64,000 bases of DNA from Saccharopolyspora gloriosae (lineage in GTDB: Bacteria; Actinomycetota; Actinomycetes; Mycobacteriales; Pseudonocardiaceae). Shown piece by piece: positions 18,889 through 59,280 of this stretch. Where the stretch lies: the NCBI RefSeq assembly GCF_014203325.1, contig NZ_JACHIV010000001.1:186001-250000 (forward strand), in the 5' to 3' direction. The position numbers and the translations under genes are program-made. Numbering within the stretch: the first letter of the stretch is position 1; the number at the start of each line of letters is the position of its first letter. The notes beneath the pieces were generated by a model. It did no database searches. It was not told the DNA's origin and saw nothing but the letters and a program-made list of their open reading frames with translations.

Positions 18889-18995
18889 GTGGCGGAACCT
18901 CAGGTGTCTTCTCGCTGCGGGATCTTTTTCCCAAGTGGCTCCGCCACGAGGGAAAAAGCCGTCCTCGCGAGAAGACACCTGAGAACCCGCCGGTG
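18889..18995 (+). repeat. Palindromic repeat element, copy A
   Basis: First of three copies of a long palindrome. A 17-bp arm (CTCAG + GTGT + CTTCTCGC) pairs with GCGAGAAG + ACAC + CTGAG. Inside is a second stem (CTTTTTCCC/GGGAAAAAG) with a small TGGC/GCCA hairpin at the tip. Flanks GTGGCGGAAC and GAACCCGCCGGTG are shared with the other copies. It sits between the convergent ends of truA and the ABC permease. Confidence 0.85.
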
Positions 18996-19148
18996 AGGAC
19001 TTCTTGACGTGGGCTATGTGCTTCGCACATACAGGCACGGCCTCCGGCCGCAAGGCAGACTTCGCTCCGCTCGTCCACTGCACGGCTTCGCCGCTAGGCA
19101 TTGCTTTTGGCTGCGCGGCGGAGTGGTGTGCGGGGGCGGGGGGTGTTG
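18996..19148 (+). other. Hairpin-rich spacer after repeat A
   Basis: No gene. It holds several small stem-loops in a row: TATGTGC/GCACATA (19015-19031), a CGGCC-type hairpin near 19038-19051 and CGGC-TTCG-CCG near 19083-19093. This part differs from the sequence that follows the other two repeat copies. Confidence 0.5.
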
Positions 19149-20336
19149 TCAGGGTTTGCGGAGGGCTTCGGTCAGTTTGACTCGGGCTCCGGTTCTGAGG
19201 ATGGCGTTGGCGTAGATTCGGCCGCCCAGGCGGAGCAGGCCGGCCAGGGCGGCGATGCTCAGGAGCACGGCGACCGCGGACTCCCAGGGCTCGGCCACGC
19301 CCAGGGCGGTGCGCATCGGCATCAGCACCGGGGAGAAGCCGGGGACCAAGGACAGCGCGGCGCCCAGCGTGCTCTCCGGATCGTTCGGCAGCACGGTGAG
19401 GCCGACGACGAACGGGATCACCAGCAGCATGATCACCGGGGTGACCACGCTCTGCAGGTCCTCCTGGCGCGACACCAGGGACGCGGCGGCGGCGAGCACC
19501 GTGGCGTACAGGTAGAAGCCGAGCAGGAACCACACCAGCGCCCACAGCATGGTCCCGAGCAGCGCGGCGGAGGGCAGCGCCAGCACCCCGGCTCCGACGG
19601 CGACCGCGAGCCCGATCCCGCCGATCAGCACGAACTGCGCCAGCCCGGCCAGCCCGATCCCGAGCACCTTGCCCGCGAGCAGCTGGGTGGGGCGGATGGT
19701 GGAGAGCAGGATCTCCACGACGCGGCTCGTCTTCTCCTCCACCACGCCTTGCGCCACGGCCTGGCCGAACATGATCAGGAAGAAGTAGAGCAGCATCCCC
19801 GCGCCGACGGCCATGCCGAGCCGCTGGCCGCGCTGCGGGTCGTCGGGCTCCAGCGTCCGCACGTCCACCTGCGCCCCCGCCAGCACGGCTCGCACGTCCG
19901 CGGGGTCCAGCCCGGCCATCGCGAGCTCGGCGTCGAGGGCCTGCTGGCGCACCACCTCGTCCAGCGCTGTGCGCACCCCCGAATCGGGCGCGGTGCGCAC
20001 GATGAGGTTCAGGGCGTCCGGTGCTCCGGCGACGAGCCCGTCCAGTTCGCCGTCGGCGACGAGCGCCTCCCCGGTGGCCTGATCCGGGATCCGGGTGCTC
20101 TCGACGGTGGTGCCGAGCCGGGCGGCGGTGCGTTCGAGGGGCGTCGCGACGGCGGTCGCCTGCCCGGTGAACCCGATCTTGGAAGTGGCCCCCTGCTGTC
20201 CGATGAAGAACATCAGCGCGGCGTAGCCGACCAGGATCGCGAGGATCGCGCCGGTGCTGATCAGGAAGGACCGGGTGCGGATCCGGGTGTTGACCTCGCG
20301 GCGGGCGACGGTCCACACGGTGCGCAGCGGACTCAC
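19149..20336 (-). CDS. ABC-2 type exporter permease (NatB-like)
   Basis: Membrane half of an ABC exporter (395 aa from the GTG at 20336, overlapping the ATPase stop as GTGA). An N-terminal membrane helix (FLISTGAILAILVGYAALMFF) is followed by a large extracellular domain of about 150 residues. Five or more helices come after the segment EEKTSRVVEILLSTIRPTQLLAGK, which is the hallmark of ABC-2 permeases of the NatB/YhaP type. It forms a transporter with the ATPase next to it; sodium export is the textbook case, but the substrate here is unknown. Confidence 0.9.
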   Translation of the reverse strand: MSPLRTVWTVARREVNTRIRTRSFLISTGAILAILVGYAALMFFIGQQGATSKIGFTGQATAVATPLERTAARLGTTVESTRIPDQATGEALVADGELDGLVAGAPDALNLIVRTAPDSGVRTALDEVVRQQALDAELAMAGLDPADVRAVLAGAQVDVRTLEPDDPQRGQRLGMAVGAGMLLYFFLIMFGQAVAQGVVEEKTSRVVEILLSTIRPTQLLAGKVLGIGLAGLAQFVLIGGIGLAVAVGAGVLALPSAALLGTMLWALVWFLLGFYLYATVLAAAASLVSRQEDLQSVVTPVIMLLVIPFVVGLTVLPNDPESTLGAALSLVPGFSPVLMPMRTALGVAEPWESAVAVLLSIAALAGLLRLGGRIYANAILRTGARVKLTEALRKP

Positions 20337-21244
20337 GCGGCACGCTCCTCGGTGACGACGGTGCGGAACAGGTCGGTGAGGTCGGGCCGGTCGCGGCGGA
20401 ACTCGTGCACCGGGCCCGTGGCGAGAGCGGCGCGCAGCACGGCCTGGTCGTCGGCGCCCTCGGCGAGTTCGAGGGTGGTGCGGCCGTCCCGGACGTCGAG
20501 GACGCGGACTCCGGCGAGCCCGTCGGCCCATCCCGCGGTGGCCAGCGGCGCGTGCACCACGAGCTTCGCTGCGCCCTGATCGCGCAGCTCGGCGACGGTG
20601 CCGCACGCGACGGTGCTCCCGGCGGCGACGATGCCGACCCGGTCGCAGAGCCGCTGCACCAGGTCGAGCTGATGGCTGGAGAACAGCACCGGGATGCCCC
20701 TGTCGCGGGTTTCGCGCAGCACGTCGCTCATCACCTCCACGGCCACCGGGTCGAGGCCGGAGAACGGCTCGTCGAGCACCAGCACGTCCGGTTCGTGCAC
20801 GAGGGCCGCCGCGAGCTGCACGCGCTGCTGGTTGCCGAGGCTGAGCCGCTGCACCTGCTCCTCGCGCCGGTCCCGCAGGCCGAGCCGGTCGGTCCAGTGC
20901 GCGGCGGCGGACCGCGCGCGCTCGCGGCTCATGCCGTGCAGCTCCCCGAGGTAGGAGAGTTGTTCGGCGACCTTCATCTTCGGGTAGAGGCCGCGTTCCT
21001 CCGGCATGTAGCCGAAGCGCCTGCGGACGTCTAGGTCGAGCGGTGCCCCGCGGAAGCGCACCTCGCCCGAGTCCGCGGCGAGCACGCCGAGCGCGATGCG
21101 CATCGTGGTGGTCTTGCCCGCGCCGTTGCTGCCGACGAAGCCGAACAGCTCACCGGCGCCGACGGTGAACGTCATGTCGCGCAACGCGACGGTCTCGCCG
21201 TAGCGCTTGGAGATGCGGTCGATCTCCAGGCCGCTGTCCGCCAC
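20333..21244 (-). CDS. ABC transporter ATP-binding protein (NatA-like)
   Basis: ATPase of the exporter (303 aa). The GTG at 21244 is chosen because GAGGAGG lies eight bases upstream. Visible motifs are Walker A GSNGAGKTTT, signature LSLGNQQRVQLAAAL, Walker B VLVLDEPFSGLDP and the H-loop in SSHQ. The C-terminal about 90 residues are the DUF4162-type extension common in NatA/drug-export ATPases. It lies 129 bases downstream of glpD on the same strand and may share its transcript. Confidence 0.93.
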   Translation of the reverse strand: MADSGLEIDRISKRYGETVALRDMTFTVGAGELFGFVGSNGAGKTTTMRIALGVLAADSGEVRFRGAPLDLDVRRRFGYMPEERGLYPKMKVAEQLSYLGELHGMSRERARSAAAHWTDRLGLRDRREEQVQRLSLGNQQRVQLAAALVHEPDVLVLDEPFSGLDPVAVEVMSDVLRETRDRGIPVLFSSHQLDLVQRLCDRVGIVAAGSTVACGTVAELRDQGAAKLVVHAPLATAGWADGLAGVRVLDVRDGRTTLELAEGADDQAVLRAALATGPVHEFRRDRPDLTDLFRTVVTEERAA

Positions 21245-21373
21245 GTGCAACGCCTCCTCGGGTTCGTACCGCCTGCGGATCATCGTGCCGGACGAGGTGC
21301 GGGGATCGGTCCGGTTCGGGGCTTTCCGCGAGGTCGGGGCATGTCGGTTCGGTCACGGGTTCCCGGTGCGGGG

Positions 21374-22951
21374 TCAGTCGAGCAGGCCGTGCAGGGCCTT
21401 GTCGACGAGGGCGGTCACCACGGGCAGCGCCTCCGCCCGAAGGTCCGGCCGCAGGCCCAGCCGGGTGCGCCGGTCGAGGACGTCGTCGGCGTCGAGCGCC
21501 CCTTCGTGGCGCACCGCCCACAGCACTTCGGCGGCGGTGAGCTCGGTGCCAGGCGCCACCGGTTCGGCGAGGTCCGGGTCCAGTTCGGCGAGCGCGGCCA
21601 CCCGGCCCGCTTCGGTGCCGTAACGCGCCACGAGCCGCGGTGCCGCCTCGATCCGGTGCAGGTGCGCCCGGTCCGCGGCGCCGACCAGCGGAACGGCGGT
21701 GGTGCGGGACGGGCCCGCGGGCAGTCCGGCGGCGCGGACGGCGGTGTCCACGGCTTCGGCGGCCATCCGCCGGTAGGTGGTGAGCTTGCCGCCGACGACG
21801 GTGACCACCCCGTCCGGGGAGGTGCGCACCGCGTGCCTGCGGGACAGGTCGGCCGACGACGCCTTGCGCTTGCCCGCGGGTTCGTCCAGCAGCGGGCGCA
21901 GCCCGGCGAACGACCCCAGCACGTGCTCCCTGCCGAGCGGTGCGCCGAGCGCGCCGCGCACCGCGGTCAGCAGCTGGTCCACATCGGACTCCGGCACTCC
22001 CGGCACGGCGGGGATGGGGCCGTGCACCGGTTCGTCGGTCAGTCCCAGGTAGGCGGTGCCGTCGGATTGCGGCAGCAGCAGGAGGAAGCGCCCGGACTCG
22101 GCGGGCAAGGTCAGCGCGGTGCCGGTGAGCCCGGCGGCCTCGGCGTCGATGACCAGGTGCGAGCCGCGCGAGGGGCGCAGCCGGACCTCCGGCGAGAGCT
22201 CCCCGGCCCACACGCCGGTCGCGTTCACCACGGCGCGCGCCGACAACCGCAGGTGCTGCCCGGTGCGCTGCTCGACGGTGTCCGCGCCGTCGCGATCCAG
22301 CGCGGTCGCGCGCACCCGGGTGAGCACTCGCGCGCCGAAACCGGCGGCGGTGCGGGCGAGCGCGACGACGAGCCGCGCGTCGTCGATGAGCTGCCCGTCG
22401 TAGCTCAGCAGCCCGCCGCGCAGCCCTTCGGTGCGCAGGCCCGGCACGAGCGCTCCCGCTTCGACGGCGGGGACGCGGCGCGGCGCGGGCAGCACCGCGG
22501 CCGGAGTCCGCGCGGCGCGGCGCAGCGCATCGCCCGCGTGCAGCCCGGCGGTGAGCACGGCCTCCGACTTCCGGGACACGGCCTCGTGCAACGGGATCAG
22601 CTGCGGCAAGGTGCGCACCAGGTGCGGCGCGGTGCGGGTCATCAGCACGTCGCGTTCGACGGCGCTCTCCCTGGCCGTCGCGAGGTCGCCGTGCGCGAGG
22701 TAGCGCAGTCCACCGTGGACGAGCTTGCTGGACCAGCGCGACGTTCCCCACGCGAGGTCGTCGGCTTCCACCAGCGCGACGCGCAGCCCGCGGGAGGCGG
22801 CGTCCAAGGCCACTCCGGCGCCGGTGACCCCTGCTCCGACCACCAGCAGGTCCAGCGTCTCGTCGGCCACCGCGGACAGCTCGGCGCCGCGGCGGGCGGT
22901 GTTCAGCGAGGTGGCGCGCAAGGAGCCTGCGGGCAGCGGCGTGGTGCTCAT
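21374..22951 (-). CDS. glpD: FAD-dependent glycerol-3-phosphate dehydrogenase
   Basis: Oxidises glycerol-3-phosphate to DHAP, passing electrons to quinone at the membrane face (525 aa). The FAD-binding motif is LLVVGAGVTGAGVALDAASRG. Family signatures are WGTSRWSSKLVHGGLRYL and VVGGKLTTYRRMA, and the C-terminal DAO_C domain runs from about residue 400. GGAGG precedes the ATG, which overlaps the TetR stop by ATGA, so the regulator and enzyme are co-translated. The gene order GlpD-TetR-divergent flavoprotein matches the mycobacterial glpD1 locus. Confidence 0.95.
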   Translation of the reverse strand: MSTTPLPAGSLRATSLNTARRGAELSAVADETLDLLVVGAGVTGAGVALDAASRGLRVALVEADDLAWGTSRWSSKLVHGGLRYLAHGDLATARESAVERDVLMTRTAPHLVRTLPQLIPLHEAVSRKSEAVLTAGLHAGDALRRAARTPAAVLPAPRRVPAVEAGALVPGLRTEGLRGGLLSYDGQLIDDARLVVALARTAAGFGARVLTRVRATALDRDGADTVEQRTGQHLRLSARAVVNATGVWAGELSPEVRLRPSRGSHLVIDAEAAGLTGTALTLPAESGRFLLLLPQSDGTAYLGLTDEPVHGPIPAVPGVPESDVDQLLTAVRGALGAPLGREHVLGSFAGLRPLLDEPAGKRKASSADLSRRHAVRTSPDGVVTVVGGKLTTYRRMAAEAVDTAVRAAGLPAGPSRTTAVPLVGAADRAHLHRIEAAPRLVARYGTEAGRVAALAELDPDLAEPVAPGTELTAAEVLWAVRHEGALDADDVLDRRTRLGLRPDLRAEALPVVTALVDKALHGLLD

Positions 22952-23604
22952 GGGGCCTCCGGGTGGGCAGGTCGGGCGGGGGCCGGGCGCAGCGCCGCGT
23001 CGAGCAGTGCGGCCAGTTCGCGGTTCATCGCGTCGGGGGCGGTTCCGGCGGTGAGGCGGGCGGAGAGCACGAAGGACTGGACGAGCAGCAGCAGCGCCCT
23101 TGCCTGCGCGGCGGGATCGGAGTGGCGCACCGAGCCGTCGACGTGCCCGTCGGCGAGGTAGTCGAGCAGGAAGCGCTCCGCGGCGAGCTGGGTGCTGCCG
23201 AGGCGTTCGACGAGGTAGGGCAGCAGCAGTGCGGCATCGGTGTCGAGGACCCTGCGCAGCAGCGGCGAGTCCTGGAGCTGCCGGACGGTGTCGAGGGTGG
23301 CGGTGACGAGCCGTTCGCGGGCGGTGCCGCTGCCCTCCTGTTCCCGCGCGTGGCGCAGGATCGCGCAGAAGTCCCTCGTCATCAAGGTTCCGACGAGGCT
23401 GCTGACGTCGGGGAAGCGCCGGTACAGCGTCATCCGGCTGATCCGGGCGCGGCGGGCGATCTCGGTGAGCGTGGTGCGCCGCACGCCGTGCGCGAGCACG
23501 CTGTCCCGCGTGGCGCGCAGGATCTCGGCGTCCTCGACGCGGTTCGCCGCCGTCCGGGAGGGCAGCCTCGGCCAGCCCGCGGCGCTGTGACGTTGCGACG
23601 TCAT
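22948..23604 (-). CDS. TetR-family transcriptional regulator
   Basis: 218 aa from the ATG at 23604; the frame is open further but would overlap the divergent gene. The N-terminal HTH is typical: ILRATRDSVLAHGVRRTTLTEIARRARISRMTLYRRFPD. The C-terminal ligand domain is helical and not diagnostic. It is co-translated with glpD and faces the flavoprotein gene across only 16 bp, so it probably regulates both sides. The transcript may be leaderless, as there is no room for a promoter outside the neighbouring coding regions. Confidence 0.92.
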   Translation of the reverse strand: MTSQRHSAAGWPRLPSRTAANRVEDAEILRATRDSVLAHGVRRTTLTEIARRARISRMTLYRRFPDVSSLVGTLMTRDFCAILRHAREQEGSGTARERLVTATLDTVRQLQDSPLLRRVLDTDAALLLPYLVERLGSTQLAAERFLLDYLADGHVDGSVRHSDPAAQARALLLLVQSFVLSARLTAGTAPDAMNRELAALLDAALRPAPARPAHPEAP

Positions 23605-23620
23605 ATGTAACACTGTACTG
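23605..23620. promoter_or_regulatory. 16-bp divergent control region
   Basis: Only ATGTAACACTGTACTG separates the TetR ATG from the flavoprotein GTG. It is A/T-rich against its surroundings and contains GTA...TAC half-symmetry, so it is a likely site for the TetR protein or overlapping -10 elements. No ribosome-binding site fits on either side, which suggests leaderless mRNAs. Confidence 0.45.
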
Positions 23621-25279
23621 GTGAGCGAGTTGATCGACCACACCCTGCGAGGTGGCTGGACGCCCTCCGGGGCCGGTGCGGCCCCGTTGCCGGCGCACGC
23701 GCTGCGCTGGCTGTCCACGCGCATCGGGCTCGACGGGATCACCACGCCCGCCGCGCCCGCATCGCTGCTGGACGTGCCGGGCAGCGCGCTGCCGGAAGCG
23801 GCCCGCGCGGAGCTCGCGGAACTGCTCGGCGAGCACCAGGTGCAGACCGGGGCGACGGCCCGGCTGGGGCGCGCCGGTGGCTTGTCCTACGCGGACCTGG
23901 TGCGCCGCCGCGACGGCACGGACCTGGCGATCCCGGACGCGGTGCTGCTGCCCGCGGACCCGGCGCAGGTGCAGCAGGTGCTCGAGGTGTGCGTGCGCCA
24001 CGACGTGGCCGTGGTGCCGTTCGGCGGCGGTACGTCCGTCGTCGGCGGGGTCACCGCGCTGCGCGGCGAGAAGTCGTCGGTCGTGGCGCTGGACCTGGCC
24101 GGGTTGGACCGGCTGATCTCCGTCGACCCGGTGTCGCGGATCGCGGTGCTGCAGGCGGGAGTCCGGGCGCCGGAGGCGGAGTCGTTGCTGGCGGCGCACG
24201 GTTTCACGCTGGGCCACTTCCCGCAGTCGTTCGAACGCGCCACCATCGGCGGGTTCGCCGCCACCCGCTCGGCCGGGCAGGCCTCGTCGGGTTACGGGCG
24301 GTTCGCGGACATGGTCGAGGGAGTGCGGGTGGCGACCCCGGTGGGCGAGTGGCGGCTCGGCTCCGCGCCCGCGTCGGCCGCCGGGCCCGACCTGCGCCAG
24401 CTCGCCGTCGGCGGGGAGGGGGCGCTGGGCGTCATCACCGAGGTGGCGCTGCGGGTGCGGCCCAAGCCCACCGAGATGCGCTACGAGGCGCTGGTGCTGG
24501 ACGGCTGGCAGGCGGGCGCGGAGGCGGTGCGCGCGCTGGCGCAGCAGCGGGTCCTCGCCGACGTCACCAGGTTGTCCGATGTGGACGAGACCGCCGTGCA
24601 GCTGGAGCTCTCCGGCGGCGTGAAATCCCGCGCGCTGCGGACGTTGCTGCTGGGGCGGCGCATCGCCGAACCGTGCCTGCTGGTCCTCGGCTGGGAGTCC
24701 ACCAGCGGCGCGGAGCTCAAGCAGCGCCGGGCGGCGACGTTGCGGGCGCTGAGCGGATTCCGCTCGCTGCGGCTCGGGCCGCGCGGCGGGGAAGCCTGGC
24801 ACAGCAACAGGTTCGCGGGACCACGGCAGCGGGACGCGCTGCTCGACGTGGGCGTGTGCGTGGAGACGCTGGAGACCGCGACCTGCTGGTCCCGGCTGTC
24901 CGAGCTGCGCTCGGCGGTGCGCGCCGCGCTGGTGCGCGCGCTGGAGCACGACGGGCGGGCGCCGATCGTGATGTGCCACCTCTCGCACGCCTACGAAACG
25001 GGCGCCTCGCTGTACTTCACGGTGCTGGCGGCGCGCAGCGCGCAGGACCCGATCGGCCAGTGGCAGCGCGCGAAGGACGCGGCGACCGACGCCATCACCA
25101 AGCGCGTCCCCGGCCACGAGATGGGCCGCGGCACCCTCACCCACCACCACGCGGTGGGCGCGGACCACTTGCCGTGGCTCGAATCCGAGATCGGCTCGAT
25201 CGGCACCACCGTCCTCGCCGCGGCGAAGCGGGCGGTCGACCCGACCGGAATCCTCAACCCCGGCAAGCTGATCCGCTGA
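23621..25279 (+). CDS. Alkyl-DHAP-synthase-like FAD-linked oxidase
   Basis: 552-aa flavoprotein of the VAO/PCMH fold. The FAD-binding segment is VVPFGGGTSVVGG, with GHFPQSFERATIGGF and SAGQASSGYGR. The C-terminal catalytic part has HLSHAYETGASLYFT, GTLTHHHAVGADH and the closing DPTGILNPGKL. These match alkyldihydroxyacetonephosphate synthases (AGPS family), which make the ether bond from acyl-DHAP. In bacteria the family also includes enzymes of unproven substrate. Its partner across the divergent promoter, GlpD, makes DHAP, which fits lipid or glycerol metabolism. The mycobacterial equivalent beside glpD1 is annotated only as a flavoprotein. Confidence 0.88.
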   Translation: MSELIDHTLRGGWTPSGAGAAPLPAHALRWLSTRIGLDGITTPAAPASLLDVPGSALPEAARAELAELLGEHQVQTGATARLGRAGGLSYADLVRRRDGTDLAIPDAVLLPADPAQVQQVLEVCVRHDVAVVPFGGGTSVVGGVTALRGEKSSVVALDLAGLDRLISVDPVSRIAVLQAGVRAPEAESLLAAHGFTLGHFPQSFERATIGGFAATRSAGQASSGYGRFADMVEGVRVATPVGEWRLGSAPASAAGPDLRQLAVGGEGALGVITEVALRVRPKPTEMRYEALVLDGWQAGAEAVRALAQQRVLADVTRLSDVDETAVQLELSGGVKSRALRTLLLGRRIAEPCLLVLGWESTSGAELKQRRAATLRALSGFRSLRLGPRGGEAWHSNRFAGPRQRDALLDVGVCVETLETATCWSRLSELRSAVRAALVRALEHDGRAPIVMCHLSHAYETGASLYFTVLAARSAQDPIGQWQRAKDAATDAITKRVPGHEMGRGTLTHHHAVGADHLPWLESEIGSIGTTVLAAAKRAVDPTGILNPGKLIR

Positions 25280-25368
25280 GAACGCCAGAAGCGGACCGTT
25301 GAGCGGCGCTCGCGCGACCGGCACCGTATTCGTCTTGCCGTTCCAGGTGCGCGGTGTTCTTGCGCTGT

Positions 25369-25526
25369 GTCTTGTCAGCGGCGGAGCCGCTGAGCAGTGA
25401 CCGGCTTGAGCAAGGCGACCACCGGCGGGTTCTCAGCGGCCTTCTCGCGAGGACAGCGATTTCGCTGTGTATGGACATACATGAGAAATCGATCCCGCAG
25501 CGAGAAGGCCGCTGAGGTTCCGCCAC
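25369..25526 (-). repeat. Palindromic repeat element, copy B (reverse strand)
   Basis: Same element on the reverse strand. The 17-bp arm carries CGGC/GCCG in the variable box. The inner stem is replaced by CGATTTC/GAAATCG with a TGTATG/CATACA tip. It shares with copy C a further about 45 bases, including a second hairpin (CAGCGGC/GCCGCTG) and CTGACAAGAC. It lies between the convergent ends of the flavoprotein and the MDR oxidoreductase. Confidence 0.85.
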
Positions 25527-25569
25527 CCGACCGGCTACGCAGGCCAAGCTCACGGACTGAAAAAGGCCA

Positions 25570-26589
25570 TCAGATCGTGACGAGCATCTTGCCGGTGTTC
25601 TTGCCCTGGAGGAGGCCGAAGAACGCTTCGGGGGCGTTGCGCAGGCCCTCGACGACGGTCTCCTCGTAGTGGATCTTGCCGTCGCGCACCAGCGGGGCGA
25701 CGTCGGTGTGGAACTTCTCCCGCAGGTCGGCGTGGTCGATCACGATGAAGCCGCGGATGCGCAGGCGCTTCTTCACGATCTTGAACATGTTGCGCGGGCC
25801 GGGGGAGGGCTCGGCGTCGTTGTAGACGGAGATCGCCCCGCACGCCGCGATGCGGCCGAAGTCGTTGAGCTCGTCGATGGCCGCTTCCAGGTGGTCCCCG
25901 CCGACGTTGTCGAAGTACACATCGATGCCGTCGGGCGCCGCCTGCGCGAGCTGGTCGCGGACCGCGCCGTCCTTGTAGTTGAACGCGGCGTCGAAGCCGA
26001 GGTCCTCGGTGATGTGGCGGACCTTCTCGGCGGAGCCCGCGCTGCCGATGACCTTCGCCGCCCCGTTCTGCTTGGCGAGCTGGCCGACCAGCGAACCCAC
26101 CGCGCCCGCGGCGCCGGAGACGAAGACGGTGTCGCCTTCCTTGAACTCGGCGATCTCGAACAAGCCCGCGTAGGCGGTCAGGCCCGGCATGCCCAGCACG
26201 CCCAGGTAGGCGTTGAGCGGCGCGGCGTCGCCGTCGACGGGCACGGCCCGCTTGGCGTCGAGCGTCGCGTACTCGCGCCACCCGAGGTAGTGCAGCACGT
26301 GCTGGCCGACCTCGAACTGCGGCGAGTTCGACGCGATGACCTCGCCGACGGCGCCGCCGTCGAGCGGCTTGCCGAGCTGGAACGGAGGCACGTAGGACTT
26401 GACGTCGTTCATCCGGCCGCGCATCGCCGGGTCGACGCTCATGACCTTGTTGCGGACCAGGATCTGGCCCTCGCCGGGAGCGGTCACCGGTGCGTCGGTG
26501 ATCTCGAAGTTGTCCTGCGTGGGGAAGCCGTTCGGGCGGCTCGCGAGCCGGATTTCGACGCCGGTGTCCGGAAGTCCCTGGGTCGTCAC
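25570..26589 (-). CDS. MDR-family NADP-dependent oxidoreductase
   Basis: 339-aa zinc-free medium-chain reductase of the leukotriene B4 dehydrogenase/CurA type, which reduces enone or enal double bonds with NADPH. The GTG at 26589 is chosen because GGAGG lies six bases upstream. Motifs include MSVDPAMRGRMND, GMPGLTAYAGLFEIAEFKEGD, the nucleotide loop VSGAAGAVGSLVGQLAK and VYFDNVGGDHLEAAI. It stands alone; its own promoter should lie in the A/T-rich bases around 26600-26640. Confidence 0.93.
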   Translation of the reverse strand: MTTQGLPDTGVEIRLASRPNGFPTQDNFEITDAPVTAPGEGQILVRNKVMSVDPAMRGRMNDVKSYVPPFQLGKPLDGGAVGEVIASNSPQFEVGQHVLHYLGWREYATLDAKRAVPVDGDAAPLNAYLGVLGMPGLTAYAGLFEIAEFKEGDTVFVSGAAGAVGSLVGQLAKQNGAAKVIGSAGSAEKVRHITEDLGFDAAFNYKDGAVRDQLAQAAPDGIDVYFDNVGGDHLEAAIDELNDFGRIAACGAISVYNDAEPSPGPRNMFKIVKKRLRIRGFIVIDHADLREKFHTDVAPLVRDGKIHYEETVVEGLRNAPEAFFGLLQGKNTGKMLVTI

Positions 26590-26782
26590 GCTGGCCTCCA
26601 TATACGAAACTGATTCGTGTCGGAAATAGTGTGTAGCAAGGGGTTCGCCGTCCACATGATGGCCGCGCGGGCAACGCCGTGCGCGGTGGACGCCCCTGCA
26701 GGGCAACCTCGCCGAAGACCGGATCATTCCCGGTTCGGCAGTGGCATCGCTAACGAAATCGAACCGCCGCCGCGGGGCCCGC

Positions 26783-27169
26783 TCACTCCGGGTTCTTGCC
26801 CCGGCGCAACGAGGGCGACCAGCGGGACTTCTCCAACGAGCGGCGCAACATCAGGTACGCCGACTGCACCGAGGCGATCAAGTCCTCCGCGCGGCCCGGC
26901 GCCACCCTGCGCTCCGGGGCGGGCATCGGCGTCACCCGCATCCAGCGCTCGTCCCACAGCGCCTGCATCGCGTGCTTCCAGCGCTTCTCCACCTCGTCGA
27001 CGACCTCGTCGCGGACCTCGGCGGCCTCCTCGATCCGCACCGAGGCCGCCGCGACCTCCTGCGCCAGCCGGGCCGACTTCTCCCGCTCGTGCTCGCGCAT
27101 CCGCTCGGCCGCGCTGGTCGCCGTCGCGATGAGCTCCTTGTACCGCGCCGACGCCGGAACCTCGCTCAT
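26783..27169 (-). CDS. Coiled-coil protein beside the FtsK-like ATPase
   Basis: 128 aa, with the start overlapping the ATPase stop by ATGA. It is almost wholly helical: a heptad-rich region from about residue 10 to 75 (TSAAERMREHEREKSARLAQ onward), then WKHAMQALWDERW and a Pro-rich turn before a short basic C-terminus. I see no catalytic motif or membrane segment. I do not recognise the family. Position and coupling suggest it works with the ATPase as an adaptor or structural partner. Confidence 0.75.
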   Translation of the reverse strand: MSEVPASARYKELIATATSAAERMREHEREKSARLAQEVAAASVRIEEAAEVRDEVVDEVEKRWKHAMQALWDERWMRVTPMPAPERRVAPGRAEDLIASVQSAYLMLRRSLEKSRWSPSLRRGKNPE

Positions 27170-36182: not shown

Positions 36183-36211
36183 CGCGCGGGCTCGTTCGTC
36201 CCGGGTGAATC

Positions 36212-36250
36212 CCGGTTGGTCTCTCACCGTTCTCGCGAGGGACCGACCGG
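36212..36250. terminator. Bidirectional terminator between the muramidase and CopD-like genes
   Basis: A 14-bp stem (36212-36225 with 36237-36250, two G-U pairs) with an 11-base loop lies in the 89-base gap of two convergent genes. Confidence 0.65.
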
Positions 36251-36271
36251 GGCACGCCGGTGGGCGCGAGA

Positions 36272-48677: not shown

Positions 48678-48689
48678 CGTGGACGCTGG

Positions 48690-50315: not shown

Positions 50316-50752
50316 GTGCGCTCACCACCCACGTCCGGGGCGGCGTCCACTTCGGCGCGGAGTGCGTCGATCCGGGGATCGACGAAGCGTTCGGAGAACC
50401 GGACGTAAGCGGTGGTGATGAGCACTGTGGACGCGAATTGCCCGAGCCCGAGCAGCAAGCCGATGTTGATCTCGCCGAACACGGGGGTCGCCATGAACTC
50501 GGTCCGGTAGGCGGCCAGGAGCACGTATCCGAGATACCAGAGCAGGAATAACGCGGTCATCGGAAATACGAAGCTGATCACCTTGCGGCGGAGCGCGTGG
50601 AATTCGGAGCTCGCCGCGATGGCCTGGTAATCCGGCCCGCTCCGCAGTGCGGGGTCGGTGCTGCGTTCGATTCCCGCGAAGGGTTTCGGAGTTTTCCTCC
50701 TGGCGCGGTGCTGCGGATACGCGCGTATCGCTGTTTGAGTAGCGTCGCTCAT
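50312..50752 (-). CDS. DUF485 membrane protein (YjcH-like)
   Basis: 146 aa. After a 60-residue cytosolic N-terminus the DUF485 core has two helices (FVFPMTALFLLWYLGYVLLAA and IGLLLGLGQFASTVLITTAYV) with YRTEFMATPVFGEINIGL between them. It is the usual companion of ActP/MctC symporters and presumably helps their assembly or activity. First gene of the two-gene operon. Confidence 0.92.
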   Translation of the reverse strand: MSDATQTAIRAYPQHRARRKTPKPFAGIERSTDPALRSGPDYQAIAASSEFHALRRKVISFVFPMTALFLLWYLGYVLLAAYRTEFMATPVFGEINIGLLLGLGQFASTVLITTAYVRFSERFVDPRIDALRAEVDAAPDVGGERT

Positions 50753-51477
50753 GCTTCCTTCCCGGAAGTTCTACGTTCGGGTCGGTTGAACTCGGGGGAC
50801 CCGGTGGATGCGATGTCGAAGCTTTGCGGCGGCGAAGTTAACCACTTCTCCACTGCCAATGAAAAGAGATGTCACCACACAGGATGACGGCTCGATCACT
50901 TAGTGTGACTTTTTGCCGTCCGTGCCCGGCCCCCGTGACACGACAGGTTGGACTTCGACCACTCGGCGGCAAGGGCTGGTGAAGGTTTTCGGCCTGCCTC
51001 GTCAGGCATCGCGGGAGCCCGATCCTGCTTCCGTGCAGTGAAAAATTCCTCGTTCCGGGACTGCCGGAGCAACCCCGGGCGCACTTGACGTGCGGTGTTC
51101 GCCGGAGTGGATTGAGCCCAAAACGCCCTCCGTAGTTTCCAGGGGGCGGGGTTTATAGTGCAGGCACCGAAAGCAGACCGTCTCTCCTTCCTTCGCCCCG
51201 GTTAGGTGTCCGTGTCCGGAATGCCGCCAGTCCCGGCACAGCTAGTAACGATCGGTTCGGTAACGCTCGGTCTCGCTGGAGCCGCCGTACCGATACGGTC
51301 CTGTGCTGGAAGTAAGCCCCGCCGACTGCGAGCCTGCCCGCCGCCGGACCGTTTTCCACCCGACAACCCAGACGACGATTGCGGGATCACACGCATGCGC
51401 CGTTCCCCGACGCCAAGATCGCTCGAGAGAGCTCGCACGCTGAGTCCGGCCGCCCGGCCGATGCCGGGGTGGTGCTC
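50753..51477. promoter_or_regulatory. Control region between the symporter operon and the conservon
   Basis: 725 bases without a supported gene. TATAGT at 51155-51160 is a strong -10 for the conservon, with a weak -35; it would give a leader of about 310 bases. On the other side, TCACTTAGTGTGA (50896-50908) has TCAC/GTGA symmetry upstream of the DUF485 gene and may be an operator. Confidence 0.45.
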
Positions 51478-54400: not shown

Positions 54401-54831
54401 GCCTGCGATTCGGGAGGAAGGGCCCCATGACGTCGTCGCAGGACAACGCCGCGTCCGGACCCTCCACCGGCGAGCAGGAGGCGACGGGCGGCGGGAGTTC
54501 CAGCTGGATCACGGACTCCGCGAGCAACGGCGACCCGGCACCGGCGAACGGCAACGGCAACGGCAACGGCAACGGCGGCTGGAGCTTCGCGACCGACGAG
54601 TCGTGGAAGCAGGTCGAGGCGGCGACGACCTCGAACCCCACCTCGTTCACCGAGTCCGGGCTGCCCCGGCGCACGCCGAAGGCCCAGTTGGCCCCGGGCA
54701 GCGCGGGCACGGGCCCGGCCAGGCCGGAAGGCCAGCGGTTCGAGCGGGACGCGAGCGCGTTGCGCGGCAGGTTGTCCAGTTTCCAGTCGGGTGTCGAGCG
54801 CGGCAGGCATCGGCTGCCGGACGAATCGTAG
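51478..54831 (+). CDS. cvnA: Conservon sensor-kinase-like protein CvnA
   Basis: 1117 aa from the GTG at 51478; the frame is open from 51379 and the start is uncertain. Two membrane helices (about 23-44, FAAVVLVPVIFAVGLGI, and about 325-347, MLLASLLVAAAVITAI) flank a helical extracellular nitrate-sensor-like domain. HAMP-like and coiled regions lead to a HATPase_c domain with ELMDNAANFSAPDTSVTV (N box, about 535) and DEGIGMGD. No phospho-accepting His box is obvious. The last 470 residues are low-complexity, with about five ETGFSTA repeats (about 704-745) and FTESGLPRR twice. It works with CvnB, C and D in a membrane complex likened to G-protein-coupled signalling. Confidence 0.92.
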   Translation: MTAPTPARRRVALRQWRNWSLPVKFAAVVLVPVIFAVGLGISQIRWQVEQANEYERVSHVLDSAQRVEPLVAALQDERNAAVLTNNAAELDRQIAEVDKAFAAVDEELGHGSGHAAAEFGQVVEDRHDEVHAALDKLNEAREAVRRESLSTPDTINAYSTAITTVLSLDRALTSTVSEPTLASTASALQDMLSMMEEVRLQQAWVLSGLSQGQLAPQSVDALQGSRARLISKIADARATVARHWQERLDQTTQGPEIVQRNTMLTQILMAGMSGGPFPATPEQWNGISDQVVMLIDDGHNDLAAEVRTGASTLREDAGNAAGWDSAMLLASLLVAAAVITAITRQLLGSLRTLRHGALDAAQHELPEAVAGIRAGEEVADLPPLPVRTTEEVGQVARAFDEVQRQALRLAAEQASLRHGYSESFVGVSRRSQGLLERQLRLFEQLEQDEEDPDQLSRLFQLDHLATRMRRNNENLMVLSGSDLARRFVRPTELGDMLRAAVSEIEQYPRVVVQPPPQVRLLGHAASDLVRLMAELMDNAANFSAPDTSVTVSSYQAGDGSITVDVLDEGIGMGDQELAAANERLSRVDENDLATSRRMGLFVVARLALRHGVGVRLHGGPDVDGVRATVVVPAEHVVAGAPAAPPAPAMGGQRNGVAHHDLPTSGSFGAGPHSAGAFGDAAPQQSDDTGFVWSTSGGDSGSSAGETGFSTAENGFSTGETGFSTAETGFGTAAETGFSTAESGETGPNTFNTGFLTAAGDGLTSSPLPKREPAAGLVGPSQREDAASSEPAGSLFTPVEIPEQDQGESYDFSSDWTSSDLAWPPAIEDRPASDDGPSPIFEEVSTQWFQPIEGEEESAGGAQGWPGDDEQATSIMDSGSWSFTADSAEEAEAEAAAAEGGSGFTESGLPRRETRDRSAVHVDENDPLGIGDLDEPGPDQVDSTGGTATIDAAAAGAPAERSPQELSRRLADLQGGLRFGRKGPMTSSQDNAASGPSTGEQEATGGGSSSWITDSASNGDPAPANGNGNGNGNGGWSFATDESWKQVEAATTSNPTSFTESGLPRRTPKAQLAPGSAGTGPARPEGQRFERDASALRGRLSSFQSGVERGRHRLPDES

Positions 54832-54995
54832 GAGGACACATGCGTTGCTCGGCTGCGGATGAGCCTCGATGTCAGAAGGAGTTCTAGCCAGGCCACTGAG
54901 GGCGCGGGAAGACCGCGTCCGGTTCCACCGATTCGGCAACATGGAGTCGTCCGGACCGACATCGGCGATTCCACGACCACAAGCCAGGAGGTTGC

Positions 54996-55442
54996 ATGAC
55001 TCCCCAGGAGACGATGTCCCGGCGGTTCGGGTGGCTGGTCACGGACTTCACCCAGCGAGTCGCCGGTGTGGCGCACGCGATCGTGGTGTCCGCCGATGGA
55101 CTGCTGCTGACCGCTTCGGCCAACCTGCCCCAGGACCGGGCGGATCAGCTCGCCGCGGTCTCGTCCGGTCTGCTCAGCCTCACCAACGGAGCCGCGAAGT
55201 GCTTCGAGGCCGGTGAGGTCACCGAGACCATCGTGGAGATGCAGTACGGCACGCTGATCCAGATGGGCATCAGCGACGGGTCCTGCATCACGGCGTTGGC
55301 CGCGCCGCAGTGCGACATGGGCCTGATCGCGTACGAAATGGCCATGCTGGTGGAGCGCGTCGGGCAGATCCTCACCCCGGAGTTGCGGCACCAGTTGCAG
55401 GGCGCGAGAAATCCGTTCTCCCGGCCGGCCGCGGTGAGGTGA
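54996..55442 (+). CDS. cvnB: Conservon roadblock/LC7 protein CvnB
   Basis: 148 aa. Roadblock/LC7 domain: RFGWLVTDFTQRVAGVAHAIVVSADGLLL and LTNGAAKCFEAGEVTETIVE. It presumably binds or regulates the small GTPase CvnD. AGGAGG precedes the ATG. It lies 164 bases after cvnA and four before cvnC. Confidence 0.95.
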   Translation: MTPQETMSRRFGWLVTDFTQRVAGVAHAIVVSADGLLLTASANLPQDRADQLAAVSSGLLSLTNGAAKCFEAGEVTETIVEMQYGTLIQMGISDGSCITALAAPQCDMGLIAYEMAMLVERVGQILTPELRHQLQGARNPFSRPAAVR

Positions 55443-55446
55443 CGCG

Positions 55447-56304
55447 ATGAGCGAATCGGGGTTCGGCGAGCAGGACCGAAGACGGGACGAGCCGGACGCG
55501 AGCAGCTTCGCCGACGTGATGAACGGTTTCACCTTCGACAGCGGCCGGGGAAGGCGCGGCCGCCGCAAGAAGGGGGATCCGGTGGACGAACCGGCCGCCG
55601 AGCAGGACGCGGGTCAGCAGGGGGACGCGGGCGCGTCGCAGCCCCCGCCGGCCCCTCCGCAGGCTCGGCGTCCGACGGCTCGCCCGCCCGCGGACGTGTT
55701 CGACGGGCGGGATCCGTTCGATGCACCGGATCTGGAGTGGGAGACGCAGGCGCCGTCGTACCGGGACCCGGACGAGGGCTGGGGGGAGCGTGCGGATTTC
55801 GATTCGCGGGCCGGAAGTTCGGCCTCGTGGAACGTCGGGGCACCGGCCCAGGGAAGGCCCGATCGGCCGGCCCCGGGAAGGCCCGATCGGGGGGGAGGGA
55901 ATCCGGTGAGCGGACAGTCCAGGGGGGCGTTCGACGCTCCGGTCCCGGAACCGGAACCGTCGGCGGACGCCCCCGCGGCCATTCGCTCGTACACCTGGAC
56001 CGGCGGTCGGACCAGGTCGAACTACGAGCTGCAGATGGAGACGCTCGTGTCCACGAGCGAGGCCTTCCGGCCTGGCTCGACGGGGCGGATGGAACACGAG
56101 TCGATCGCCGAACTGTGCCGGCATCCCAGGTCGGTAGCCGAAGTCGGAGCGCTGCTTTCCGTTCCGATCGGGGTGGCTAGGGTGTTGCTGGCCGACATGG
56201 CGGAACTGGGGATGGTGACCGTGCACCAGACGGTCACCGAAAGCGGTAGCGCACCACACCTGTTGTTGATGGAAAGGGTATTGAGTGGACTCCGTCGGCT
56301 TTAG
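55447..56304 (+). CDS. cvnC: Conservon DUF742 protein CvnC
   Basis: 285 aa. The conserved DUF742 part is the C-terminal about 110 residues (AIRSYTWTGGRTRSNYELQMETLV, SIAELCRHPRSVAEVGALLSVPIGVARVLLADM), which has a winged-helix character. The N-terminal 170 residues are a disordered Pro/Asp/Arg-rich extension with a GRPDR repeat, unusually long for this family. The gene overlaps cvnD by 20 bases. Confidence 0.93.
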   Translation: MSESGFGEQDRRRDEPDASSFADVMNGFTFDSGRGRRGRRKKGDPVDEPAAEQDAGQQGDAGASQPPPAPPQARRPTARPPADVFDGRDPFDAPDLEWETQAPSYRDPDEGWGERADFDSRAGSSASWNVGAPAQGRPDRPAPGRPDRGGGNPVSGQSRGAFDAPVPEPEPSADAPAAIRSYTWTGGRTRSNYELQMETLVSTSEAFRPGSTGRMEHESIAELCRHPRSVAEVGALLSVPIGVARVLLADMAELGMVTVHQTVTESGSAPHLLLMERVLSGLRRL

Positions 56305-56920
56305 AGCTCCCCAAGGAGGCGCTCGGGGGCCGGTTGCCCCCCAGCGCGGTGCCACCACCTCGGCGAAGATCGTCGTCGCGGGCGGCTTCGGTGTCGGGAA
56401 GACGACGTTCGTCGGTTCCGTTTCCGAGATCGTCCCGCTGACCACCGAGGCGGTGATGACGGAGGCCAGCGCGGGCGTGGACGACCTCGCGGCCACACCG
56501 GACAAGAGAAGTACGACGGTCGCGATGGACTTCGGCCGCATCTCGCTGGATTCGGATCTGATCCTGTACCTGTTCGGCACCCCCGGGCAGCAGCGCTTCT
56601 GGTTCATGTGGGATGACCTTGTCAAGGGCGCGATCGGCGCGGTCGTGCTGGTCGACACCCGCAGGCTGGCGGATTCGTTCTCCGCTGTGGACTTCTTCGA
56701 GGATCGCGGTTTGCCGTACCTGATCGCGGTGAACGCTTTCAACGGCGACCTGCAGCACCGCATGGAGGAGATCCGGGAGGCCATGGCGATCGGGCCGCAC
56801 GTGCCGATCGGGCCGTGCGACGCCCGGGACCAGCAGTCCACGAAGCAGGCGCTGATCGCCTTGGTGCAGCACGCGATGCGGCACTGGCAGCAGCAGGGCG
56901 GCCAGCAGCCGCCGAGGTGA
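56285..56920 (+). CDS. cvnD: Conservon small GTPase CvnD
   Basis: 211 aa, MglA/Ras-like ATP/GTP-binding protein. The P-loop is GGFGVGKTT (about 33-41). Switch II has LFGTPGQQRFWFMWDDLV; Gln at this site is usual for the family. AVVLVDTRRLADSF and IAVNAFNG (in place of NKXD) follow. The GTG start lies within the end of cvnC. It completes the conservon and is its output switch. Confidence 0.95.
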   Translation: MDSVGFRAPQGGARGPVAPQRGATTSAKIVVAGGFGVGKTTFVGSVSEIVPLTTEAVMTEASAGVDDLAATPDKRSTTVAMDFGRISLDSDLILYLFGTPGQQRFWFMWDDLVKGAIGAVVLVDTRRLADSFSAVDFFEDRGLPYLIAVNAFNGDLQHRMEEIREAMAIGPHVPIGPCDARDQQSTKQALIALVQHAMRHWQQQGGQQPPR

Positions 56921-56927
56921 GCCCGCC

Positions 56928-56960
56928 CCCGGCCGATCGGTTTTCCCGCCGTCGGCCGGG
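56928..56960 (+). terminator. Hairpin after the conservon
   Basis: CCCGGCCGA/TCGGCCGGG, 9 bp perfect with a 15-base loop, eight bases after the cvnD stop. Likely the operon terminator. Confidence 0.6.
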
Positions 56961-57695
56961 ATTCCCGGTGGACGGGTCCACCGGTGGTCGTGGCACAACT
57001 GAAGATTTTCCTGGCGAGCGCGCCGTTGGAGCGGTTTTCCCGCTCAGCGGCGCGCTCGCCGTTGCGCGGGGCGTTCCGGCAGTGCAGCGGGGCGCCGTGG
57101 GTTCTGGGGCCGCACGGGAGGGACCAGGCGGCACCACGGGTGTTTTCCGGCGCTCGTCGCAGCCGCGTCCGGTGCCTCGGCGGTCTCGTCCGCGCGGGAC
57201 GGAATGCCGTGGCGGCGCGGGGATTTCCGCCCCTCGCCGAGGTGGAGACGCGAGCGTCGCCGGTGGGACTGTCCACCATGGCTAGTGGATCTTCGATCCG
57301 GACGCGTCGAGGATCGATCCGGACGGTCCCGGCGGGCGGTGCGCGCGGGACGGTGCCGCCGAACGCCGTGATCGCGTTTTCGCTGCCACAGCCGGGCTTT
57401 TCAAGCGATCCGTTCCGGATTGGGGCTGGTTAACGCACTTGTGGAATACCGTCCGTTGTGGACGAAAGAGCGGAACTCGGCGGTGGTTTCGCGCTCGGAT
57501 ATTCACCCAATTGAAAGAGTGCGCGGATCGTTATCGGGCGGCTAGCATTCTTTAATAGCGGCCCGTGGTCGTTACTTCCACTTCTTAAGATCATCTGAAC
57601 CAGCAGGATCGGCTGTCCGCCCAAGATCTTCTTCGGGGGGTGTGCCGCGTTGTGCCAGATGGCTTTCCGCTTCATGCAAGGAGATTCGGCGAAAG
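56961..57695. other. Gene-free stretch after the conservon
   Basis: 735 bases without a supported gene. The right part (57420-57640) is A/T-rich for this genome (for example GCATTCTTTAATAGC near 57546-57560) and probably carries the promoter of the next operon, though no hexamer pair is convincing. Confidence 0.5.
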
Positions 57696-58241
57696 GTGGC
57701 CACTGTGGACTTCGACGCGCTCTTTCATTCGCACTTGGCGGCGATTCGAGCCAGCGTCCGTGCGGGGTTTCGCTTCCGGCACCTGCCCACCGGGCAGGAA
57801 GACGAGTTCGTGCTGCAAGGATTCCGCGTGGAGAACGGGGTGATGGACACGTACCTCACCTATGCGGCCGACGACGCGGTCGCGGCTCGATATCGGGTCT
57901 CGGACCTGGAACTCCCCGATCCGCCGGCGCTGTGGCGCCGCGACGGGCCGGTGGACGAGGTGGTGCTGGCCTTGCTGGCACTGCCCGCGCACGGGGCTCG
58001 AGGATCCCCGATGGCGGCCGGTTTTCCGGTGCACTTCGGCATTCCGCCGCACGCCCACCGGGCTCGGCGGCATCCGGAATCCGAGCCTGACCCGCCGCCG
58101 GAAGCGGCGGAACCGTCCGCGTCGTCGCACGATTCGGCGCCGCCCGACGTGCTGTCCCGCATTCCGCGGCCCCGCGCCGGCGGCTGCGTCCCGAATTCGC
58201 CGACGCCGCGCGGCTCCCGCTTCCCGGGAGGTGCGCGATGA
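57696..58241 (+). CDS. Uncharacterised protein, first of a small operon
   Basis: 181 aa from the GTG at 57696 (GTG 57705 is an alternative). Not recognised. The first about 100 residues look folded (VDFDALFHSHLAAIRASVRAG, RHLPTGQEDEFVLQGFRVEN, VSDLELPDPPALW); the remainder is Pro/Ser/Arg-rich and probably disordered. No signal or membrane segment. It is coupled by ATGA to the next gene. Confidence 0.65.
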   Translation: MATVDFDALFHSHLAAIRASVRAGFRFRHLPTGQEDEFVLQGFRVENGVMDTYLTYAADDAVAARYRVSDLELPDPPALWRRDGPVDEVVLALLALPAHGARGSPMAAGFPVHFGIPPHAHRARRHPESEPDPPPEAAEPSASSHDSAPPDVLSRIPRPRAGGCVPNSPTPRGSRFPGGAR

Positions 58242-58486
58242 ACGGCAAGAAGCACCTGCCGATGGCCTGGCACTTCGAACGGGTCTCCTCGCGGGAGGCG
58301 TACACGTTCCGCTGGGGGCGCGGTTCCGGAATGATCACCGTGCACCGCGGTGACGCGCGCGGTTCGCACAGCGACGACAACCTGGTCGACTGCCTGCCGG
58401 TCGGCATCGACTGGATCGACGACCAGGACGTTCGGGTGCAGGCCCGCAAATGGATCAGAGCGAATGCGGGACGTGGCGTGCGCTGA
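58238..58486 (+). CDS. Uncharacterised small protein
   Basis: 82 aa, ATG overlapping the preceding stop. Contains AWHFERVSSREAYTFRWGRG and DDNLVDCLPVGIDWIDDQDV; mixed alpha/beta, soluble. The family is not recognised. Overlap with the preceding gene implies a shared function. Confidence 0.7.
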   Translation: MNGKKHLPMAWHFERVSSREAYTFRWGRGSGMITVHRGDARGSHSDDNLVDCLPVGIDWIDDQDVRVQARKWIRANAGRGVR

Positions 58487-58928
58487 GTGCGCCACCCGCA
58501 GGAATCCGCATTCCGGCGTCCGCGTCGAATTCGCCGAACGCCAATTCGCCCCCGGATTCGGGGAGTCGGTTTCGAAGCTCATTCATCCGGCCCCGCCCCT
58601 GCCCGGCCGCGGTTCCGAGCGTCGAGCCGGCGGGGGCGGTGGCGGACAGCGCGATTCGTTCCAGGACTCGCCGATGCGGTGCGGCGGGGGCTGGCGGTGC
58701 GTTCCACGGGCCGGTCGGCGCGGAGCCGCCCGGCCCGAGCGCCCCGCGGCGAACGCGGTGGCGTCCGGTCGGAACCGGCCTTCCCGCTGGTGCGGCGACG
58801 CGGGAATTTCGGCGAACGTTACGCGGACGACCCCGGTCGGCAAAGCGCCGTGCGTAGACCTGACCGGGAGGCGTTCGTTCCCCACGCGCGGGTCGAGCAA
58901 GCGGGCCCGGCAGAACAGGAGGTGCGCG
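58487..58928. other. Gene-free stretch before the CxxCxGxG gene
   Basis: 442 bases with no gene I can support; open frames in all registers are Arg/Ala-rich and non-coding in character. It ends with AGGAGG (58917-58922), the ribosome-binding site of the next small gene. Confidence 0.5.
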
Positions 58929-59099
58929 GTGAAAGTGCTGCTGCACGCGCCCGCCGCGGAACTGCCCGCGGAATGGTCCTGGTGCGCGGATTGCGCGGGC
59001 ACCGGGATCGTCCAAGCCGACCCGGCCGCGCCACCACCCGTCGAAGAGGACTGCTGGACATGCCGAGGCCTCGGCCTCGGCGCCTCGCATGTTCTCTGA
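58929..59099 (+). CDS. 56-aa DnaJ-zinc-finger-like protein
   Basis: Very short gene from the GTG at 58929 with a strong AGGAGG six bases upstream. It has two CxxCxGxG-type motifs, CADCAGTG (about 20-27) and CWTCRGLG (about 43-50), separated by an acidic Pro-rich linker. This is half of a DnaJ-type zinc finger and could bind one zinc ion. Stand-alone miniature proteins of this sort have no known function. Confidence 0.65.
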   Translation: MKVLLHAPAAELPAEWSWCADCAGTGIVQADPAAPPPVEEDCWTCRGLGLGASHVL

Positions 59100-59127
59100 T
59101 GGGACCTCCTGCGTAGTGGGTCGCTCA

Positions 59128-59280
59128 GCGGAACCTCAGTCGTCTTCTCGCTGCGGGATCTTTTTCCCGAGTGGCTCCGCCACGAGGGAAAAAGCTGTCC
59201 TCGCGAGAAGACGACTGAGAACCCGCCGGTGGTCGGCTTGCTCTGGTGGTCACTGCTCAGCGGCTTCGCCGCTGACAAGA
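59128..59280 (+). repeat. Palindromic repeat element, copy C
   Basis: Third copy, starting GCGGAACCTCAG. The variable box is TCGT/ACGA within the 17-bp arm; the inner stem and tip match copy A with two changes. The following about 70 bases, with a second hairpin (CAGCGGC-TTC-GCCGCTG, 59258-59274) and CTGACAAGAC, match copy B. It lies 28 bases after the zinc-finger-like gene and upstream of the jet operon. Confidence 0.85.

Follow-up and report, generated by a model that had tools for sequence, protein, structure and literature searches.

Palindromes with a variable paired box beside gene 3' ends in Saccharopolyspora gloriosae: a probable MITE-like family

Judged by description, the closest counterparts of the palindrome family considered here are the YPAL (RU-2) palindromic sequences of Yersinia (PMC2229807) and the repeats of Streptococcus pneumoniae (PMC3049150). 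The pneumococcal elements BOX, RUP and SPRITE are, like the present family, small structured repeats enriched between convergent genes; SPRITE looks like a terminator, and all three have been proposed as miniature inverted-repeat transposable elements (MITEs). REP (repetitive extragenic palindromic) sequences and the related BIMEs share the high copy number and the extragenic palindromic form (PMC3733652, PMC2817692), while Correia/NEMIS and ERIC elements are likewise short repeats, which fold when co-transcribed and are linked to cleavage by RNase III or to other transcript cleavage (PMC2229807, PMC3049150). All comparisons made here refer to the descriptive passages of these reports. We analysed a 64,000-nucleotide stretch of Saccharopolyspora gloriosae (the window; assembly GCF_014203325.1, contig NZ_JACHIV010000001.1, positions 186,001 to 250,000 of the forward strand), in which a preliminary description, made from the letters alone, had noted three copies of a palindrome with a short box that differs from copy to copy and is complemented in the opposite arm. 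These copies belong to a large family whose members are mostly paired, stand mostly beside gene ends, are missing from some orthologous sites in relatives and carry different boxes at orthologous sites that are occupied. We consider it probable that the family is a non-autonomous, MITE-like mobile palindrome that lands or survives mostly at gene 3' ends, with its left end close to the stop codon.

Element architecture and family size

In the window sequence, the three copies stand where they were first placed, and the 17-bp arm was found in each, with the form CTCAG-N7-CTCGC / GCGAG-N7'-CTGAG. The box differs in each copy and is paired, as the preliminary description had it, but its true length is 7 bp, not 4: the remaining three positions vary in relatives and are CTT in all three window copies, which is why only four of the seven had been seen. 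Its exact complementation in the opposite arm likewise holds for these three copies but not for the whole family (see below), and the inner stems of the window copies differ yet remain paired, as described. Folds and the alignment give an imperfect hairpin core of 99 nucleotides (nt). The outer part consists of GCGG, an AAC/AAC internal loop and the 17-bp helix (CTCAG, seven variable bases, CTCGC); the inner part runs from a conserved asymmetric section, with TGCGGGATC facing GCTGTCCTC or GCCGTCCTC, through a variable inner stem to a short apical hairpin. Beyond the core, the element extends roughly 30–45 bp to the left and roughly 55–125 bp or more to the right.

Copy 1 (core 18892..18990, plus strand) has the box GTGTCTT at 18904-18910 and its complement at 18972-18978. 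Its left flank (18857..18891) directly follows the stop codon of a pseudouridine synthase gene (18026-18856), and its right tail (18991..19115, right limit approximate) is of type B, an array of small TTCG-loop hairpins. Such hairpins (GGCACGGCCTTCGGCCGCAAGGCAGGC...) occur in the tail at many loci, in arrays of varying length, and may be a separate repeat. Copy 2 (core 25425..25523, minus strand) has the box CGGCCTT at 25505-25511 and its complement at 25437-25443; its left flank (25524..25569) reaches the stop of an oxidoreductase gene (25570-26601), and its right tail (25369..25424, limit approximate) is of type A, with a GCGGC-loop-GCCGC hairpin. In copy 3 (core 59128..59226, plus strand), the box TCGTCTT lies at 59140-59146 and its complement at 59208-59214, followed by a type A tail (59227..59281, limit approximate) and the jetA start at 59484. 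Convergent genes enclose copies 1 and 2, and copy 3 precedes jetA, in agreement with the preliminary description; our own gene calls leave 641 nt upstream of copy 3, where a frame ending in TGA shortly before the element was probably missed.

A pattern that fixes the constant arm segments only had 282 exact matches in the 6.83-Mb genome and none when reversed as a control, so the family is far beyond chance. Genome pattern listings omit some minus-strand copies (those at 1931710 and 1971496, which have matching arms, were found by reading the DNA) and were therefore unused for orientation statistics. The same core occurs in species of Saccharopolyspora, Amycolatopsis, Saccharothrix and Pseudonocardia, in at least 120 stretches among the matches listed. 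Covariance-model matches at E <= 1e-6 were present in 29 of 120 genomes sampled from one family, probably Pseudonocardiaceae, and in 12 of its 46 sampled genera; at most 34 candidates were scored per genome under strict filters, and copy numbers are lower bounds. Among 200 sampled genomes of the order, a sample in which the share of other families is not stated, the 11 with model matches all fell inside the same family. Further copies, which the preliminary description had proposed to seek with such a model, thus number hundreds in this genome and extend to its relatives. Copy 2 received the top model score, and was itself among the 53 copies that built the model. Rfam 15 gave no match in the window at the gathering score and, over five loci, a single match up to E=1, with 24 bits against a gathering score of 70.

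Pairing, strand and variability of the box

Covariation in the family is real. For 31 candidates in 464 kb of unselected DNA, box positions pair in Watson-Crick fashion in 87–94% of cases per position, against 34–66% after the right arms are shuffled among copies; these candidates include two non-copies (words GCGGCAC and GCCACGA), which were dropped from a later unselected count but not from these percentages, and a degenerate copy near 4932984 that the filter for the gene-context set had missed. Among 53 copies chosen for diversity, 94.8% of cells are paired, double changes occur at 17 of 30 pairs, and 0 of 500 shuffles reached the observed value on any of five covariation measures, where the shuffles ignore relatedness and the structure came from the same alignment. 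The covarying pairs for which the preliminary description had proposed such a test are thus present. Among 89 copies examined from the own genome, the box is completely paired in 69, has one mismatch in 14 and more in six, and one box pair is C-A in 52 of 131 distinct copies from other species. The early proposal that selection maintains structure and not sequence agrees with the box and the inner stem, but sequence too is well conserved in the internal loops and in the helices that adjoin the box.

Some copies are rearranged (L numbers denote loci; G003, G004, G005 and G018 are relative genomes, the last from a different genus). At L010:1482-1580, L107 and G003:C1:925186, the inner part or the apical hairpin has the reverse orientation to the outer arms, which points to exchange between arms, and L056 holds three matches within 2 kb (1536, 3141 and 3363), two of them overlapping and rearranged.

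In the 17-bp helix of other-species copies, C-A cells, which would wobble on the opposite strand, outnumber G-U cells by 94 to 21, with 51 of the 94 at a single position; own copies have 11 C-A and 8 G-U. Helix 3 has a plus-strand G-U in 49 of 53 copies. Of 134 other-species copies, 112 fold more stably on the minus strand, as do 43 of 61 own copies, a difference that loop sequences could also cause. The C-A excess first suggested a minus-strand RNA; with so many of these cells at one position and the helix 3 G-U on the plus strand, the fold may matter on either strand.

The box varies far more than its surroundings. At each CTCGC position of the unselected sample, 27–28 of the 31 candidates have the commonest pair, against 12–24 of 31 at box positions. 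Across 65 own copies with the same inner stem, all accepted with no more than three changes over 24 end bases, variant letters per column per 100 copies number 0.92 in CTCGC, 0.61 in the inner helices, 0.00 in CTCAG and 29.0 in the box; the last is close to the 35 of the 30 bp adjoining the core on either side. These contrasts bear on the idea that pairing is a mutational by-product, in which template switching between the arms copies changes from one to the other and the box covaries without function. Full pairing of the box in most copies (69/89) fits such a process, as do the copies with an inverted inner part (L010, L107), which show exchange between arms. But template switching should hit the neighbouring CTCGC too, where the commonest pair prevails, and the inner stems covary as well. 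We therefore regard it as rather unlikely to be the whole explanation, though it may still supply changes that selection then sorts.

Gene-end position, mobility and turnover

The 28 unselected copies comprise 16 between convergent, 12 between co-directional and none between divergent genes (P = 3e-8 against the intergenic base share, by which ~17%, ~57% and ~26%, respectively, are expected in the 464 kb). This set leaves out a match at 1895930 with 5 mismatches inside a gene, and gene calls came from our own codon-based script, not a standard gene finder. Seen along the orientation of the element, 23 of 28 copies have an upstream gene that points toward them, and in 17 of these 23 the core starts 28–46 nt past the stop codon. 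G018, where stretches were chosen around top model hits, has a similar layout: of 25 copies, 15 are convergent, 10 co-directional and none divergent, with a co-oriented upstream gene in 24, and 20 of these 24 sit 37–59 nt behind its stop. Stop triplets also peak 39–44 nt upstream of the core among 125 other-species copies. A set of 75 copies collected earlier and in part by selection, three of which lie at edges, has 26 convergent, 42 co-directional and 4 divergent locations, with none in genes. In two 200-kb stretches, 23 of 25 copies are oriented along the G-rich strand, compared with ~60% of coding bases, and convergent sites agree in 12 of 14 cases; the bias is weaker in G018 (19/25 by chromosome half, with the origin assumed at coordinate 0, and 14/25 by local GC skew). 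Any of three causes could account for the position at gene ends: a preference for such targets, selection against insertions elsewhere, or a benefit of the hairpin as an mRNA 3' end.

The last of these leads to a different account, already raised in the preliminary description, in which the palindromes belong to the host, serve one or both neighbouring genes as bidirectional terminators or RNA-stabilising 3' ends, and are dispersed only secondarily. Every one of the 28 unselected copies has a gene 3' end on at least one side, an ordinary hairpin occupies the same place at site C in G005 and site D in G004, and the core is much better kept than the adjoining 30 bp, all of which would suit such a role. 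Against it, the three window copies have, by eye, no T-run directly behind the hairpin on either strand; the helices are conserved in sequence beyond what a terminator needs; the site D copies have decayed in G005 and in the window; 4 of 72 copies of the partly selected set lie between divergent genes; and an older hairpin remains intact downstream of the insertion at 4972338 (see below). A terminator function of the hairpin is plausible from its position at gene ends, and host ownership of the whole family is possible without being the reading we favour.

Several features point instead to mobility, the other suggestion of the preliminary description. The elements are short, non-coding and dispersed in many copies (the 282 with exact arms), and among 75 copies compared, the outer flanks of near-identical copies are unrelated. 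We compared 27 own copies with syntenic DNA in relatives, within the fetched stretches and excluding 1999435, which lies near an edge. In G005, 16 syntenic sites comprise seven with a copy in the same orientation, one in the opposite orientation, one doubtful and seven without a recognisable core; in G003, 12 sites comprise four occupied in the same orientation, one in the opposite and seven without a core; and in G004, two of three sites are occupied. The coreless G005 sites at 1931710 and 5006677 are losses rather than empty sites, because pieces of the element tail persist. Some orthologous sites are truly empty, as the preliminary description had thought worth checking: G005 lacks the insert at 4959207 and 4972338, with flanks 95–98% identical. 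At 4972338, the own-genome insert starts right behind the TAA stop, with the older, terminator-looking hairpin downstream of it. At 1903937, TCA stands on both sides of the G003 insert and once in the empty G005 site.

Candidate target duplications from empty sites are thus TCA at 1903937 and TAA/GAA at 4972338; in other species, a further candidate is the TATA of L113. At four loci of other species (L098, L113, L120 and L124), a type C copy has another palindrome of 44 bp around it, split at or near its TATA centre; the same palindrome is found empty at L185:2264 and 7485, L143:5920 and L102:6002. This second family (~44 bp, CCGTGAGYACTTTGTG...CACAAAGTRCTCACGG, TATA centre) occurs in Saccharopolyspora species and looks like a repeated terminator-type hairpin. 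The hundreds of dispersed copies, the empty orthologous sites and the four copies inside another palindrome family together support the suggestion of a non-autonomous mobile palindrome; each empty site or split palindrome is an individual case. Terminal inverted repeats are seen in some copies (CCTGTCTTTGGTC... / ...GATCAAAGACAGG in L007; GGGTCCGTT... / ...AACGACCC at 4972338), with no copy-specific excess in own type A (p 0.09) or type B (p 0.59). Direct repeats beside the core likewise show no copy-specific excess in own copies (p 0.75); in other species they score 6.93 against 6.36, with 0 of 2000 permutations reaching the observed value, which we read as subfamily structure. The idea that the flanks are the split arms of a terminator was rejected, with p 0.59 for own type B, 0.09 for own type A and 0.42 for type D of other species; a type C split-arm signal (0/2000) stems from the four copies inside the other palindrome.

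Movement by a REP-associated tyrosine transposase (RAYT, or Y1) would match the high copy number, the intergenic position and the orientation bias along the G-rich strand (23/25). The PF01797 profile of these enzymes, however, has no match in the own genome, while the control search was positive in 5 of 14 known genomes, and the core measures 99 nt against the 20–40 bp of REPs (PMC3733652). Since REPs with CGTC tags are not associated with transposase genes (PMC3733652), the absence of PF01797 counts against the GTAG kind only. A REP/RAYT system in the strict sense, which the preliminary description had linked with MITEs, is not borne out, and we hold it to be very improbable.

Copies also differ at sites that have stayed occupied. 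The box is shared in 0 of 15 orthologous comparisons at 10 sites (eight with G005, five with G003 and two with G004; two in opposite orientation), while two random own copies share it in ~4–7% of cases. Orthologous copies thus agree in the box no better than random ones, and the box changes, mostly still paired, while the site stays occupied. At 5004750, a site-unique left flank, common to three species up to the core, adjoins the boxes TCGGTCT, CTGTCTT and TTGGTCT, each complemented in its own copy; both flanks are nearest to the ortholog at 4995126 (G005) and 1903937 (G003) as well. In these flank comparisons, a box word present at two sites of one genome may be mispaired (e.g. G004 at 211425). 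Box words recur across sites, with CGTTCTT in 18 of 89 own copies, and this sharing among many sites suggests copying. G018 differs in having one box in 20 of 25 copies.

Sharing a box does not bring copies of one tail type, A or B, closer in their flanks than having different boxes does: right-flank similarity is 0.823 against 0.818 in type A and 0.814 against 0.811 in type B, and left-flank similarity 0.668 against 0.648 and 0.676 against 0.703. This speaks against a guiding role for the box, in which it would pair with the insertion target or be a copy of it. A highly variable box inside a constant element would suit such a guide, and some flank columns are tied to the box (up to 0.43 bits in own copies, where shuffling gives at most 0.30, and up to 0.42 against 0.15 in other species); but the associated other-species columns lie mainly in conserved parts of the element's own flanks, and we read the associations in both sets as subfamily differences. 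We give a target guide hardly any credence.

Weight of the evidence and place among known systems

A mobile, MITE-like palindrome with a preference for gene ends remains the account we find probable. The core would be maintained as a folded molecule, either within the upstream gene's 3' untranslated region or in single-stranded DNA; the constant helices and internal loops would be the recognised part, and the 7-bp box would be constrained by pairing alone. Insertion spares the gene, and the cell would either tolerate the hairpin as an mRNA 3' end or use it as one, so that copies could accumulate in hundreds. Resident copies may be altered or replaced through exchange with other copies, either by gene conversion or by new insertion at the same gene end. 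A bolder version takes the box as a self-templated variable cassette, in which exchange among copies, guided by hairpins or cruciforms, would rewrite the two arms of a resident together and in place, leaving the neighbouring segments unchanged. If true, the genome would hold a few hundred landmark hairpins, each a constant part with a changing paired tag, lying within or next to stop codons, which keeps genes intact. The link between box and tail type and the bias in how copies were collected make this version less likely, and we put it forward tentatively, as an unlikely one.

Several observations weigh against mobility with turnover as set out here. The box is imperfect in 20 of 89 own copies, four of 72 copies in the partly selected set have a divergent location, and a fold on either strand remains compatible with the wobble and stability counts. 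Duplicated 4-mers with inverted ends (score >=8) occur in 12 of 125 other-species copies against ~8 when shuffled, and in none of the own set; as this general test gave no clear excess, short target duplications rest on two sites. Among enzymes, for which the PF01797 and PF01609 families were searched, the PF01609 profile found five genome loci, none with convincing element ends. The constancy of the outer helix and the CTT of the box are partly built in, as most own loci come from a listing that fixes CCTCAG and CTTCTCG. The box is linked to tail type (GTGTCTT is found 7 times in B and 0 in A, TCGTCTT 9 times in A and 0 in B), which means that boxes are not free to move across the family as a whole. 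A difference of just one base pair, the outcome expected of ordinary stepwise compensation, is seen in two of the 15 orthologous comparisons. Lastly, the left flank is not closest to that of the orthologous copy in 10 of 14 aligned comparisons, so new insertion at the same gene end is indistinguishable from conversion there.

Other features were recorded along the way. A decayed remnant of a fourth copy lies between convergent genes at 36183..36271 of the window; the copy is full in G003 and internally deleted in G005, and a different hairpin stands there in G004. Downstream of copy 3, the Wadjet defence genes jetA, jetB and the first part of jetC occupy positions 59484-63999. Loci L326-L330 hold insertion-sequence copies that carry DDE_Tnp_1 genes and end in sequences like AAGAGCGCGTCTCACTTGG, two of them nearly identical and ~13 kb apart near 3.51-3.52 Mb.

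The bacterial group that carries the family includes antibiotic and insecticide producers. To this group our data add a large palindrome family absent from the sources searched: among the top-ranked open-licence matches, no description of it was found in the literature on palindromes, MITEs, REPs or terminators of Saccharopolyspora, Pseudonocardiaceae, Amycolatopsis or Actinobacteria, or on bacterial MITEs generally. Its covariation is strong and local, in that one short helix segment differs between close relatives and the neighbouring helices do not, which poses a testable question: whether palindromic repeats are kept because the folded molecule works or because their arms copy one another. 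By keeping next to stop codons, a mobile element may also have a simple means of doing no harm.

From the systems named at the outset, the family is set apart in several ways. YPAL/RU-2 belongs to another host group and is distinguished by description, not by sequence; the passages of PMC2229807 that describe it make no mention of a variable paired box or of stop-codon spacing. BOX, RUP and SPRITE have, by description, another host and other sequences, and the main text of PMC3049150, as far as it covers them, is without the words covariation and compensatory. Correia/NEMIS and ERIC, again by description, have other sequences and hosts (PMC2229807, PMC3049150). REP/BIME repeats are short and bear GTAG or CGTC tags, the GTAG kind being tied to tyrosine transposases (PMC3733652), whereas the present family has its 99-nt core and a genome without a PF01797 match. 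The family is best described as a MITE/REP-like palindrome with an unusual box that is paired and highly variable.

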